Below are positions 3,804 to 34,506 of a stretch of DNA of 36,534 nucleotides, piece by piece. Position numbers and translations under genes: made by a program. Origin of the DNA: a virus; the IMG/VR virus record IMGVR_UViG_3300042547_000045, positions 1 through 36,534 of that record, one strand, 5' to 3'. The notes under the pieces are model-generated. The model did not search any database, was not told where the DNA came from, and saw only the letters and a program-made list of their open reading frames with translations. Positions within the stretch are counted from its first letter, which is position 1, and each line of letters starts with the position of its first letter.

Positions 3804-3907
3804 CCGCTTGCGTATGCTGCCCTTGCGACGGATAGAGCCTTGGCCTTAGAGGGAAATGGCCCCTTGCTGCCCCACATCCATCCGGTTTTGGTGTGTCTGA
3901 GCGGCAT
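3683..3907 (-). CDS. Small conserved phage protein, possibly the N-terminal part of the HNH gene
   Basis: A 74-residue reading frame. Its first ~38 residues look like a small phage family with pattern TGWMWGSKGPF, then KAKALSVARAAYASGYRE (family proteins resemble 'W-WG-G...K..A..Q/ARA.YASGYKE'); no function is known to me. The rest is a proline/serine/threonine-rich run that looks like out-of-frame reading of the HNH gene, with which it overlaps for ~120 bp. The start shares bases with the stop of the preceding gene (TAATG), so translation is coupled. Either this is a short protein with an over-long tail, or its first 38 residues are fused to the HNH domain by a frameshift near 3795. Confidence 0.6.
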   Translation of the reverse strand: MPLRHTKTGWMWGSKGPFPSKAKALSVARAAYASGYREAPSLPHPTTPSADTSGARTPDQSSTATASTTGARKA

Positions 3908-4314
3908 TATTGATAGTCGCGCAGCTTGAGGATGGTCACGTTGATGAGGTTGGCGATGTTGTCTACCTCGTTCTGTAGTTCGGAGTCTTGAGGAAATCCG
4001 GGCGCCCGCCTGAGCGTTTCGACCTCATCCTTCAACGTGGTGATGTAGGCAAGGGGGTCGTTTGGGGGCAGTTTGTAGTCCGCAATGAAGTCGTGGAGTT
4101 GGCCGTACTTGCCTTGGAAGGATTCGATGAAGCCGTCGAGCTTGTCAGACAGTTCATCGTAGAAGATGCCCAAAGCCCGATGTGCTGCGTCTGCTCCCGG
4201 CCCTTTGCGCGTCCAGTGCAGGATGTGGGCATTCGTCACGGCATGAAGCATATGCATCGTGAAGACCATCAAGGGGTCGTTTTGCTCTTGAGCTTCGTTG
4301 ATTGCGAATCGCAT
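3907..4314 (-). CDS. DUF5856-type, Dps/ferritin-like helical protein
   Basis: 135 residues, predicted all-helical. The segment HILHWTRKGPG...AHRALGIFYDELSDKLDGFIESFQGKYG is the recognisable core: His/Trp early in helix 1, His-x-x-Leu and Phe-Tyr in helix 2, and an acidic helix with E-S-F-Q-G, as in the DUF5856 phage family and reminiscent of Dps-like four-helix bundles. Whether it binds iron or DNA cannot be told; a full ferroxidase set was not identified. The start is supported by AGGGG about 8 nt before the ATG. It is the first gene leftwards from the divergent control region, with a candidate promoter just upstream, and is coupled to the next small gene by TAATG. Confidence 0.65.
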   Translation of the reverse strand: MRFAINEAQEQNDPLMVFTMHMLHAVTNAHILHWTRKGPGADAAHRALGIFYDELSDKLDGFIESFQGKYGQLHDFIADYKLPPNDPLAYITTLKDEVETLRRAPGFPQDSELQNEVDNIANLINVTILKLRDYQ

Positions 4315-4380: not shown

Positions 4381-4610
4381 TTCTCCTTTGGTGAATGTCT
4401 GAGCAAAGCACAGCCTTACCGTAGCCTCACTACAGTTCGCACTGTGCCGCAACGCTTCTCCTTCGGAGCCATGCCGTCGCTTCGCACTACCCTAGACTTG
4501 TTTCAACCACCCGGCTCTAGGATTCGCCCACCGTCCCCGCCTTGGCTTGCTCGTGCAGCGGGGTATCTCAAGCCTGACCACCGACGTACCGCATCAGGCC
4601 GTCCAAAAGC
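4381..4610. other. Hairpin-rich non-coding segment, 5' half of the divergent intergenic region
   Basis: No credible gene on either strand. Several perfect short inverted repeats are visible: ACAGT/ACTGT with a TCGC loop (4432-4445), CTCC/GGAG in a TTC(G) loop (near 4459-4468), CCTAGA/TCTAGG (4491-4521), CCCCGC/GCGGGG (4535-4563) and GCCTGA/TCAGGC (4572-4599). The density is higher than expected for plain promoter DNA. It continues without a break into the stronger structure at 4614-4800, so the two may be one large RNA. An origin of replication is an alternative. Confidence 0.45.
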
Positions 4611-4613
4611 AAA

Positions 4614-4800
4614 AACCCCGTAAAACTCTCTGTGGTCTTGGCTCTTGGCGAGAGCAGCAGCAAAGCGATTGAAGATGGACAAAAGCCTCGCTTGCTACCT
4701 GACAAGACCACACAGAATTCTGCGGGGTTCAAGGCCCATCTTCATCGCCTAGATGCCACTCTAGACAAGCGCATTCTTGCACAGATGAATGTTGCTTGCA
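4614..4800 (+). ncRNA. Candidate structured non-coding RNA (closed multi-branch stem with possible pseudoknot)
   Basis: The arms 4614-4640 and 4703-4729 pair over 27 positions with only three mismatches and one G-U. The 62-nt interior holds GCTCT/AGAGC (4641-4655) and AGCAAAGCGA/TCGCTTGCT with one bulged A (4659-4668 with 4688-4696). The loop of the latter carries GAAGATGG (4671-4678), complementary to CCATCTTC (4736-4743) outside the main stem: a possible 8-bp pseudoknot. Downstream come CTAGA/TCTAG (4749-4764) and a two-part hairpin CAAGC+CATTC with GAATG+GCTTG (4766-4798). The one wobble pair is T-G on the plus strand, weakly favouring plus-strand transcription. A 68-codon frame through it is judged spurious. 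I recognise no Rfam family; transcription is unproven. Confidence 0.5.
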
Positions 4801-4868
4801 CAGCAAAAAACACCCAAAACCTAGGGTTTCCACTATAGGGTGACGGTCTAGTCGAACTACACTAACAA

Positions 4869-4909: not shown

Positions 4910-5305
4910 ATGAAGATCGGAACCCAAACCAACAGCCTGATCAACCACATCTATAGCCGCGCCGTCATCGGTCAACCCGAGCCGGTCGTCGGCATGGGTG
5001 CCACGATGCTGCATTGGACTGACCGCACCCCCGGCACCATCTTCCGCGTGTTCGCAGTTGGCAAGTCCACCTTTGTTGAGGTGCGCGAAGACAACAAGAC
5101 CCGTACCGATGACAACGGCATGAGCGATGCCCAATCGTATTCGTTCAAGACCAATGTTAACGGCCATGCCCGCACCTTCAAGCGCAAGGCCAATGGTCAG
5201 TGGGTTCAGGTCTACAAGAGCAATGACACCGGGCGTTGGTTGCAGTCTGACGGATGCGGCCTTCGCATCGGTGAGCGCAGCGCCTACTACGACTTCTCCT
5301 TCTAA
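4910..5305 (+). CDS. Conserved hypothetical early phage protein
   Basis: 131 residues with no function I can assign. The start MKIGTQTNSLINHIYSR and the central GMGATMLHWTDR resemble a family common as a first early gene in phages of Gram-negative bacteria. After the ATMLHWTDRTPGTIFRV segment there is a regular alternation typical of small beta-rich proteins (VFAVGKSTFVEVRED, later FKRKANGQWVQVYKS), then a C-terminal GERSAYYDFSF. It has a strong GGAG ribosome site and is first in the plus-strand operon, followed by a GC-rich UUCG hairpin that would lower transcription of later genes relative to it. This suggests high early expression, perhaps a host-takeover protein (inference). Confidence 0.8.
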   Translation: MKIGTQTNSLINHIYSRAVIGQPEPVVGMGATMLHWTDRTPGTIFRVFAVGKSTFVEVREDNKTRTDDNGMSDAQSYSFKTNVNGHARTFKRKANGQWVQVYKSNDTGRWLQSDGCGLRIGERSAYYDFSF

Positions 5306-5312
5306 TCAACCC

Positions 5313-5328
5313 GCCCCCTTCGGGGGGC
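5313..5328 (+). terminator. UUCG-tetraloop hairpin after the first early gene
   Basis: GCCCCC-TTCG-GGGGGC: six G-C pairs closed by a C(UUCG)G tetraloop, 7 nt after a stop codon. The following bases (ATCTTC) are only weakly T-rich, so it may be a leaky terminator or an mRNA-stabilising/processing hairpin rather than a full stop. Confidence 0.5.
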
Positions 5329-5346
5329 ATCTTCAAGAGACAAGAC

Positions 5347-5442
5347 ATGAAACAAAAACTTATCGACATAGCCTTCGCCATCATCACCGGCTTGATTGGC
5401 TGCGCCTTCCTTCTTCATGCGCTCGGTGCGCTTTGGGAGTGA
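5347..5442 (+). CDS. 31-residue single-pass membrane peptide
   Basis: MKQKLIDIAFAIIT followed by a hydrophobic run through GLIGCAFLLHALGAL: one predicted membrane segment and almost nothing else. It sits between two real genes; its stop is two bases before the next ATG, and the leader GACAAGAC directly before the ATG is also found before the Erf gene. No homologue is recognised. It could be a small inhibitor or superinfection peptide, but that is a guess. Confidence 0.5.
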   Translation: MKQKLIDIAFAIITGLIGCAFLLHALGALWE

Positions 5443-5444
5443 GC

Positions 5445-6161
5445 ATGAAAGACGATGGTGAATACCGCGTAGAGGTCAAGGTCAGGAACAACCTGATCCT
5501 GAGCGCAATGGAAGCTGCGGGCTACAAGAACGTCAATCAGTTGTGTGTGGCGGGCGGCTTTGCTCCTACGCATATCGGCGCGTTTGTGAACATGAAGTGG
5601 TCGCCATTGGCTGCTGATGGCGACTTGACCCCAACAGCAAAGCGTCTGTGCGACTTTCTTGGCGTGCTGCCTGAAGACCTTTGGACACCCGAGCAACTGA
5701 TGTTTGTGCTGCCTGACAACAAGTCGCACTTTAACGTCGGGCATCGCGCCATGATGGAGATGCTTGCGCGTCACACGGGTGAGTTGTTAGAGCAGCCTGA
5801 CATTGATGCAAACATTGAGAGCGATGATCGTAAGCGCATCATTTCCGAGATGCTCGACACGTTGTCGCCCACTGAAGCAAAAGTGTTGCGCCTGCGGTTT
5901 GGCATTGACTCCCCTGACGAGCACACGCTTCCTGAGATTTCAGAGCTTTATCAACGCAGTAAGGAGCGCATCAGACAGATTGAGATGAAAGCCATCAGGC
6001 GATTGGGCGACAAGATACGCGGCCCAAAGCTAAAGCCTTATGCCCAAGTGCAGCCAAAGGTTGATTTTGACGCCATCAAGCAAGCGCACGAGCTTGCCAA
6101 GATGACGCCGGACGAACGCGCCGCGTGGGAAGAGGAACAAAACAAAAGGAAAACAGCATGA
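5445..6161 (+). CDS. XRE-like / sigma-70 region 4 transcription regulator
   Basis: 238 residues with two parts. Residues ~14-90 resemble a Cro/CI-type helix-turn-helix seen in phage sigma-like proteins: NNLILSAMEAAGYKNVNQLC, then sPLAADGDLTPTAKRLCDFLG and PEDLWTPEQL. Residues ~128-192 are a clear sigma-70 region 4: LDTLSPTEAKVLRLRFGID, HTLPEI, then KERIRQIEMKAIRRL, the helix that contacts the -35 element and RNA polymerase beta-flap. No regions 2 or 3 are visible, so it is not a complete sigma factor; it likely redirects or modulates host polymerase, for example for late genes. The ATG at 5445 follows GGAG at 5 nt; the frame is open further upstream, but that part lies within the preceding genes. 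Confidence 0.85.
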   Translation: MKDDGEYRVEVKVRNNLILSAMEAAGYKNVNQLCVAGGFAPTHIGAFVNMKWSPLAADGDLTPTAKRLCDFLGVLPEDLWTPEQLMFVLPDNKSHFNVGHRAMMEMLARHTGELLEQPDIDANIESDDRKRIISEMLDTLSPTEAKVLRLRFGIDSPDEHTLPEISELYQRSKERIRQIEMKAIRRLGDKIRGPKLKPYAQVQPKVDFDAIKQAHELAKMTPDERAAWEEEQNKRKTA

Positions 6162-33477: not shown

Positions 33478-34506
33478 TTAGAGCTTGATCCGCACCCCTG
33501 CGAACGGGTCGCGCACGGAGCTAACCACGCGCTTTTCAGCATACATGGTCACGAATCCGGGCAGGGTCTGTTCCATCATCTGAATGCTGAATTCGGTGTG
33601 GTCGCAGATCGTCAGGAATCGCGGCCAGTTGGCAAGGTATATCGGGTACGTTGCCGACAGGTAAGGATTCGGGATCACAGGCCAACCGAAGATGTGCGCC
33701 ACCGCACCGCCGTCATCGTCACCCGTTTCGAGGAAGATGGGGAGGTTGTTGGTGTCTTTGAGTTCGCGCAGCAGTTCGATGGTTGCAGGCGCAATGTGCC
33801 AAGCCGTGCCGGGAAGCGACCAGTATTGGCCGGGCAGCTTGGAAGCCGCAGCCGTGATGTCGTTGTAGGCAATCGCGGTCGTAGCCGTTTGCGTGGCAAT
33901 CGTGTGGATGCCGTTGGTGATCGCTGTGCCCGAGGTGCCGTAGGCTGACGTTGCGCCGTCAAGGTACATATTCAGGCCACGCAGACCATCGGTTGCGCCC
34001 GTGGTGGTGGTGGTCGAACCGGCTTGGTCGGAGTTGACCGCCATCGACGCGCCTTCGAGTTGGGCAAACTCAAGCATCAGGTCTTCGACAAGCGTGGCGT
34101 CGAGGTTGTTAACGTCGGACAGGACAGCCGAGCGAATCGGCAGGCGCGCAGCAACGACGCGCACGGGAAGCTGCCAAATGGTCGTGTTCGTGTCGGGAGA
34201 GCCGGTGTTGTTCTGCACCGCATAGCCCCAAGGGTTGCCCGCTTGGTTGGTGGCATTACCCGTCTTGGCGACGAACTGCATATCGGAACCTTCGCAGTCC
34301 CGAATGCGTGCGCCTTGTCGGAAGGGGTTTGCGTAGCGCAGAGCAGCGAAGGCGTCGTCAAAGATGACGCGACCGCCAATGCCTGAGCCGGAGCCTGTAA
34401 GCGCCGATGCTTCAGAGATGTCCACCTTGACTTGGCGGTTTTCTTGGATGGCAGACTTGATGCCGTTCAACAGCAGTTCAGTTACCGTGCTTTGTTGCTT
34501 GTCCAT
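33478..34506 (-). CDS. Second major capsid protein paralogue (HK97 fold, no scaffold domain)
   Basis: 342 residues from the ATG that has AAGGA 8 nt upstream; a TTG 51 nt earlier is less likely. Strong relation to the preceding gene: GRVIFDDAFAALRYANPFR, AKTGNA...NPWGYAVQNNTG, NTTIWQLPVR, PIRSAVLSDVNNLDATLVEDLMLEFAQLEGASMAVN, TGATDGLRGLNMY and the end VVSSVRDPFAGVRIKL. It lacks the N-terminal coiled-coil domain of its partner and has a different N-arm. A plausible role is a special position such as the pentamers, in the manner of T4 gp24 beside gp23. It lies downstream of an intrinsic terminator, predicting lower expression. Confidence 0.88.
   Translation of the reverse strand: MDKQQSTVTELLLNGIKSAIQENRQVKVDISEASALTGSGSGIGGRVIFDDAFAALRYANPFRQGARIRDCEGSDMQFVAKTGNATNQAGNPWGYAVQNNTGSPDTNTTIWQLPVRVVAARLPIRSAVLSDVNNLDATLVEDLMLEFAQLEGASMAVNSDQAGSTTTTTGATDGLRGLNMYLDGATSAYGTSGTAITNGIHTIATQTATTAIAYNDITAAASKLPGQYWSLPGTAWHIAPATIELLRELKDTNNLPIFLETGDDDGGAVAHIFGWPVIPNPYLSATYPIYLANWPRFLTICDHTEFSIQMMEQTLPGFVTMYAEKRVVSSVRDPFAGVRIKL

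Follow-up and report, generated by a model that had tools for sequence, protein, structure and literature searches.

RNA1, a structured RNA family of metagenomic phages with a hypervariable pseudoknot and a possible attenuator role at operon heads

Does a densely self-complementary stretch between two operons of a metagenomic virus encode an RNA and, if so, on which strand and with what role? The stretch lies in a window of 36,534 bases, an IMG/VR virus record analysed over its whole length, in which terminase and structural genes are mostly on the minus strand and early genes on the plus strand. The closest named relative of its terminase is that of Methylophilaceae phage P19250A (60% identity). 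A preliminary description had placed a folded RNA on the plus strand at 4614–4800, with a 27-nt stem, two enclosed hairpins, a loop-to-flank complementarity and two further hairpins. The stretch is non-coding, as claimed. The stem arms (4614–4640 and 4703–4729) are present with 85% Watson–Crick pairs; read on the plus strand they contain the one G-U pair and three mismatches described, and read on the minus strand two G-U pairs and two mismatches. The complementarity that crosses the main stem was recovered at a measured 9 nt (4670–4678 with 4736–4744), as were both enclosed hairpins (4657–4667 with 4689–4698, and 4641–4655). One of the two further hairpins, at 4747–4766, is real, whereas the stretch at about 4776–4803 lies upstream of the inferred RNA start and outside the family described here.

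The strand had to be reversed. The folding z-score was −4.64 on the minus strand, where none of 200 shuffles folded as well, and −3.35 on the plus strand, so that the region beats shuffles on both. In relatives, many positions of the helices P1, P2 and P3 are G-U on the minus strand: P2 columns 63–173 are G-U in 66 of 68 sequences, and U-G or G-U pairs occur in P3 in up to 26. These conserved pairs would be A-C mismatches on the plus strand, and the RNA is therefore placed on the minus strand, transcribed leftwards toward the gene at 3907–4314; an RNA on the plus strand is ruled out by the G-U distribution and the U-tract. Its boundaries are about 4605–4766. The outer stem had also been understood incompletely, as its base together with the U-tract resembles an intrinsic terminator.

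The element, referred to here as RNA1, is about 155 nt long and spans 4605–4766 (minus strand, as are all of its parts) from the inferred P1 start to the end of the U-tract. A covariance model, R1, matches 4600–4772 with 177.9 bits, a score that is not independent because the model was built from relatives plus the window sequence. The 5′ hairpin P1 (4747–4766; GTCTAGA-GTGGCA-TCTAGGC, with a conserved GTGGCA loop) is 99.6% paired and has two-sided changes at seven of seven pairs. It is followed by X, the 5′ strand of the pseudoknot (TGAAGATGGG, 4735–4744), and by the 5′ arm of the 27-position closing stem P2 (AACCCCGCAGAATTCTGTGTGGTCTTG, 4703–4729; 98.9% paired, two-sided changes at 11 of 25 pairs). 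In 181 of 205 cases the P2 arms span 27 positions, and the top of the stem, GGTCTTG/CAAGACC, is identical in 68 of the 68 sequences of alignment A3. Inside P2 are the P3 5′ arm (4689–4698; 97.4% paired, two-sided changes at six of nine pairs), the pseudoknot 3′ strand Y (TCCATCTTCA, 4670–4679) within the P3 loop, the P3 3′ arm (4657–4667) and the nearly invariant hairpin P4 (4641–4655; GCTC..GAGC, loop TCGCCAA), which is 100% paired, three of its four pairs never varying. The P2 3′ arm (4614–4640) leads directly into a terminator-like U-tract (TTTTTGCTTTT, 4605–4615), and a U-run is kept in 68 of 68 relatives. X and Y were located by covariation, permutation test and coordinate mapping, and the 3′ arms of P3 and P2 from the pairing in A3 and coordinate mapping. 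The window matches the definition of RNA1 (an R1 match, P1–P4 and a self-complementary X–Y), with an X–Y helix of 9–11 bp.

Relatives were sought over viral contigs with a gapped pattern derived from the stem (GTGGTCTTG, 48–78 bases, CAAGACCAC). At least 119 contig stretches match, and all but one form a single family with a tight spacing of 77–86 nt; the exception, L031 (spacing 68), falls outside this range and was rejected as a chance match. Members with compensatory stem changes, such as GCGGTCTTG/CAAGACCGC, were found using a second pattern. About 160 stored viral loci match R1, one match per locus and mostly at 136–195 bits; as the model was trained on relatives including the window, only matches outside the training set are informative. 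A few weaker matches are elements interrupted by contig ends. Two members have diverged, L311 at 5650–5845 (69 bits) and L325 at 319–481 (56 bits); the P2 of L311, largely rewritten at similar length, suits a deeper alignment. The element is single-copy in 11 of 11 RNA1-bearing virus records of 14–56 kb, the weaker second match being the same site on the other strand.

The claim that no known family is involved held: Rfam 15 gave no credible match, with no family at gathering score in the window plus 8 plus 11 loci, and at a permissive E-value (window region and five loci) nothing matched at RNA1, the sole match being a 13.6-bit chance match on the plus strand. DNA-similarity searches of INPHARED (50,697 phage records) and PLSDB (72,556 plasmids) returned no RNA1, and it is absent from Methylophilaceae phage P19250A and every other named phage checked. 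Nor did about 800 Burkholderiales genomes yield a credible one. In bacterial genomes the stem pattern occurs with scattered spacings and no credible R1 score (best 21.7 bits), and serves as a negative control; an 85-nt match of 34.6 bits in 401 genomes adjoins an apparent groEL-like coding sequence and is probably a chance match. The open-access papers searched contained no description of RNA1. As judged by sequence comparison, RNA1 is a previously uncatalogued family of structured phage RNAs that is common in metagenomic phages.

Standard pairs fill 96.0% of the cells of A3, an alignment of 68 distinct sequences. A lack of compensatory changes had been named beforehand as one outcome that would refute the fold, and two-sided changes were found at 33 of the 55 pairs. 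The covariation score is 0.375, whereas shuffles give 0.160 and sliding no more than 0.095, in an alignment made to the nested structure and so favouring its helices. The pseudoknot alone scores 0.563 compared with 0.161 in shuffles; its columns were picked from the same alignment, and an alignment-free permutation is therefore the stronger evidence. In that test the Watson–Crick run between X and Y is 9.7 nt within a phage and 4.7 nt between phages, and none of 2000 permutations matches this. There are 71 distinct perfect X–Y helices, and at the three central positions the four bases are almost equally frequent. RNA1 thus pairs an invariant core with a pseudoknot that is near-randomised between phages and always complementary within one. 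Recurrence in about 160 loci and this covariation exclude an origin by chance, as had been argued from the density of complementarities. Family, strand, fold and pseudoknot can be regarded as established by comparison.

The hypervariability of X–Y suggests a self-specific partner, but a search within the phage gave no clear signal. In the fetched DNA of the same locus, matches to the variable helix were at or below control at w=8 and w=9 and marginal at w=10 (7 compared with 2.8 in the control). An antisense target in the same phage and an immunity RNA of the P1 C4 or P4 CI type were rejected on the same ground, there being no clear enrichment of matches. A direct repeat shared by Y and the 3′ flank was also rejected for RNA1 (212 of 1000 permutations, not significant) and was weak in a second class of module introduced below (class 2; 22 of 1000), where it had first been suspected.

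Promoters were assessed using a σ70 criterion of TTGACA and TATAAT at 15–19 nt spacing, about 6–7 nt before the RNA start. Among the relatives, an exact TATAAT stands at a fixed distance upstream of P1 in 71 of 102, and an exact TTGACA precedes it by 15–19 nt in 42 of 102, compared with none in shuffles. Comparison thus indicates that most copies carry their own σ70-like promoter. The candidate promoter of the window copy (4773–4801, minus strand) has a −10-like AAGAAT at 4773–4778 that is weaker than in most relatives; the −10 also deviates in relative L002 (CAGAAT), and the window copy is a poor σ70 match. The window phage encodes a divergent protein with σ70 region 4, so that a phage-specific promoter is possible. 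This protein (344 amino acids; 5127–6161, plus strand) is divergent from the RNA1 leader and is a candidate phage σ factor adjoining a leader with a non-consensus promoter. At the other end of RNA1, a GC-rich P2 base (GCGGGG/CCCCGC) followed by a U-run is present in 68 of 68, which is the sequence signature of an intrinsic terminator; P2 base and U-tract look like a rho-independent terminator and are predicted to act as one. The stem encloses about 60 nt, a loop far larger than in classical terminators, and a simple terminator scan missed P2 because it allows only loops of 3–8.

The gene downstream of RNA1 is co-directional in all 101 scorable loci. The upstream gene points the same way in 39 and the opposite way in 62, so that a position between divergent operons, as first described, is correct for the window but not general. 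Most copies lie in the early region. In the commonest setting RNA1 is flanked on one side by an ERF recombinase or cro-like genes and followed by an O-like replication gene, which stands just downstream in 79 of 101 copies; several copies lie between the terminase large subunit and downstream structural (portal) genes. In the window, RNA1 precedes a DUF5856 gene (3907–4314, minus strand; 135 amino acids, Pfam PF19174, PHROG 858), which lies ahead of the terminase genes and has the same orientation.

In most phages a second RNA begins within a few bases of the U-tract. It belongs to unrelated types, type A in most loci and also B and C. Type A in the window (4389–4600, minus strand) is a separate structured RNA that ends in CACCA and occupies a leader-like position before gene 3907–4314; 12 of its 34 predicted pairs show two-sided changes in 24 sequences, and Rfam gave no credible match to it. 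Its helices covary and its loop reads ATGCGGTACGTCGnTGGT; the loop motif occurs in 119 stored loci, 65 with RNA1 upstream, and three one-mismatch matches to the motif were found in 399 genomes. Type A also carries a covarying direct repeat, with an internal copy of AAGGAGAA (4456–4463, minus strand) and an equal 3′ copy, AAGGAGAA, directly after CACCA (4381–4388, minus strand). The run shared by the two copies is 7.5 nt within a phage compared with 3.9 nt between phages (n = 112). A complementary (inverted) partner of this repeat was sought within the leader and none was found. The other types appear to be structured: type B (CCGTACTCC..TGGCTTGGAAGAAAACACCG) from L009 4273 onward and type C (about 380 nt, GGACTCAGAACCTAGCC..) from L277 2162 onward. 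A further variant was seen in L061, L070 and L082 (L061 from about 13705 onward). Type B, type C and the L061-like variant have no gathering match in Rfam, and a type-B-like stretch is present in MW202484 at 33705–33812.

The 5′ position is exchangeable as well. Type A loci without RNA1 have other 5′ modules or a bare promoter (L284, L290 and L322), and since in these three the promoter directly precedes the second RNA, the 5′ module is an insertable unit. Alternative modules were read in L281–L337 (upstream of type A) and L344–L408 (upstream of the replication gene). Those in the same slot include class 2 (GTTGCCGTAGGAAGC..AAGCCGTTTACTCATGC..GTAAACGGCTTTTTT), with a hypervariable pseudoknot of its own, and class 3 (GCCCTGCGAAGGC..TTCGCAGGGCTTTTT). 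Most non-RNA1 modules are of class 2 and have a P1, a closing stem with a T-run and a hypervariable pseudoknot, with no sequence similarity to RNA1. In 38 modules, mostly of class 2 with a few of another class, the pseudoknot run is 7.3 in its own module compared with 5.5 otherwise, a value reached in none of 5000 permutations. Among 69 loci fetched by their replication gene, a regular expression identifies RNA1 in 32; the others, among the matches listed, mostly have class 2 followed by a type-B-like RNA. Comparison therefore points to a slot that holds exchangeable, sequence-unrelated modules of the same architecture. The novelty lies in the RNA class and this arrangement of modules, and the physical principle may prove familiar.

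We tentatively read RNA1 as an exchangeable 5′ leader module that acts as a transcription attenuator at the head of a phage operon, and assign this reading a probability of roughly 0.4. An insertable 5′ module, with a T-run ending each alternative, fits an attenuator. The σ70-like promoter would start an RNA that folds into P1, X–Y and a P2 enclosing P3 and P4, with the U-tract as its end. Its parts would be made in the order P1, X, P2 5′ arm, P3 5′ arm, Y, P3 3′ arm, P4, P2 3′ arm and U-tract, so that X could pair with newly made Y ahead of synthesis of the P2 3′ arm. If X–Y yields, P2 would zip down to its GC-rich base beside the U-tract, polymerase would terminate and an RNA of about 155 nt would accumulate. 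If X–Y persists, winding of the 27-bp P2 would be hindered, since such a helix would wind poorly through a loop closed by X–Y while polymerase holds the 3′ end, and transcription would continue through the second structured RNA to the operon beyond, which in the window is that of DUF5856 and the terminases and in most phages holds a replication gene. X–Y would then be the antiterminating fold, and P2 with the U-tract the terminator. We infer termination, readthrough, the competition between X–Y and P2 and a factor that sets the switch from this layout. Speculatively, the hypervariability of X–Y might restrict the response of each phage to RNA of its own. When transcripts were cut before the P2 3′ arm, X–Y was in the minimum-free-energy fold of 52 of 68, and at full length P2 was present in 68 of 68; the loss of X–Y at full length is partly built in, as a nested folding program cannot show X–Y and P2 together, and the series therefore shows order and plausibility, not exclusivity. 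Counting against an attenuator, no antiterminator helix shares nucleotides with P2, the competition being argued from topology and folding order alone. P2 and P3 are conserved beyond the needs of a plain attenuator, and the roughly 60 nt enclosed by the stem and the poor σ70 match of the window promoter count in the same direction.

A stronger version of the attenuator reading is unlikely. It supposes a phage lineage with a mandatory two-part leader, both parts exchangeable among unrelated RNAs of shared architecture, and with a private pairing code in each phage (X–Y and the 3′ direct repeat), in which sensing of its own kind sets readthrough into the replication or late operon. What is sensed could, for example, be its own copy number or superinfecting siblings.

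The strongest rival, less probable but quite possible, is that RNA1 is a free-standing gene for a trans-acting small RNA, whose terminated product of about 155 nt uses its invariant parts to bind a protein or RNA of the host or phage. A promoter of its own, the U-tract in 68 of 68, a single copy and differing genomic contexts all speak for such a gene, and the GTGGCA loop, GGTCTTG/CAAGACC and P4 would supply the invariant elements. A trans-acting RNA, however, requires neither a co-directional operon nor a second RNA; the 101 of 101 co-directional arrangement upstream of an operon and the second RNA near the U-tract in most phages therefore both count against it, as does the search of fetched DNA, which found no phage target of the variable helix. 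It is improbable that RNA1 is instead the 5′ domain of a larger ornate RNA of about 400 nt or more that includes the second RNA and functions as an assembly or ribonucleoprotein, with homotypic X–Y contacts between copies, comparable to the intermolecular loop contacts of GOLLD and ROOL. The start of a second structured RNA just past the U-tract, the strong conservation and the precedent of modular 5′ and 3′ domains in GOLLD, the 5′ region divergent and the 3′ region conserved (PMC12286853), would suit it, and a hypervariable self-complementary pair would yield phage-specific assembly; but the U-tract, kept in all copies and also in unrelated 5′ modules, argues for termination between the two RNAs, some phages have no 5′ module at all, and neither GOLLD nor ROOL was matched in Rfam.

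An origin or primer RNA resembling ColE1 RNA II, in which RNA1 would form the regulatory domain at the 5′ end and the purine-rich direct repeat in the second RNA would anchor an R-loop, is very unlikely. The position of 79 of 101 copies just upstream of an O-like replication gene speaks for it, as does the repeat, which is 81% purine compared with 67% in the next 20 nt and lacks an inverted partner in the RNA. That richness may merely reflect a ribosome-binding region, though, and the terminase–portal and window copies are not beside replication genes; in co-directional terminase–portal contexts there is no GC-skew flip at the element. A DNA-level element (inverted-repeat operator, cruciform or MITE-like) has the 27-nt inverted arms in its favour and next to no probability, given strand-specific conserved G-U pairs, pseudoknot covariation and the placement of promoter and U-tract, which bear out the earlier preference for a folded RNA over operator DNA, and given a single copy in a fixed slot, which together with the pseudoknot rules out a MITE, an inverted-repeat mobile element and an operator. 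No evidence was found to support the decoy or packaging role first suggested.

In its working principle the attenuator reading of RNA1 most resembles replication-gene attenuators and phage leader RNAs. With pT181-type attenuators RNA1 would share a structured leader running from a promoter to a replication gene, in which a terminator opposes an earlier helix. The hallmark of the pT181 type is an antisense RNA, made from the opposite strand, that tips the balance toward the terminator, whereas in the predicted layout of RNA1 the competition would run through a pseudoknot that crosses the terminator stem; there is no sequence relation. At λ pR′ a constitutive promoter makes the short terminated 6S RNA, which ends at tR′ with the operon beyond the terminator, and control is exerted by the Q protein on polymerase. 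Promoter, short terminated RNA and operon beyond are predicted for RNA1 too, but the structure is unrelated. The φ29 pRNA, also from a phage and comparable in size, has covarying loop contacts that are short and intermolecular, and forms a ring on the packaging motor; most RNA1 copies, in contrast, lie in the early region of tailed phages unrelated to φ29, and no link to packaging was seen. The put RNAs of HK022 are likewise cis-acting RNAs of a λ-like early leader: they follow an early promoter, make polymerase ignore terminators and antiterminate without a phage protein. They are about 70 nt with two stem-loops, and putR lies about 270 nt after PR (PMC9378689), a site comparable to that of RNA1 after cro-like genes. 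With its roughly 155 nt, P1 plus P2–P4 plus pseudoknot, own promoter in most copies and terminator-like end, RNA1 is not a put RNA by size and structure. GOLLD and ROOL are also structured noncoding phage RNAs with pseudoknots, but they are 600–800 nt or longer, form homo-oligomeric cages and have another structure, and RNA1 and its neighbours have no Rfam match.

If the attenuator reading is true, RNA1 would be a point at which replication or late operons of phages are controlled by RNA alone. Natural compensatory X–Y variants exist, which makes a mechanistic test unusually clean, and since alternative RNA modules fill the slot, its function is testable by module swaps.

Three minor features were noted nearby. 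In L344, an Rfam int-alpA RNA (RF02996, 38.6 bits) at 4026–4091 is a further small RNA downstream in the same early region. At 4831–4840 of the window (plus strand), CACTATAGGG is a T7-type promoter core upstream of the plus-strand early operon, probably a coincidence as it is not kept in relative L002. The window also encodes a protein of unknown function of 131 amino acids (4910–5305, plus strand) that shares 60% identity with one of Synechococcus phage BUCT-ZZ01 and 56% with one of Variovorax phage V45v66, both of which are phages of 156–160 kb.
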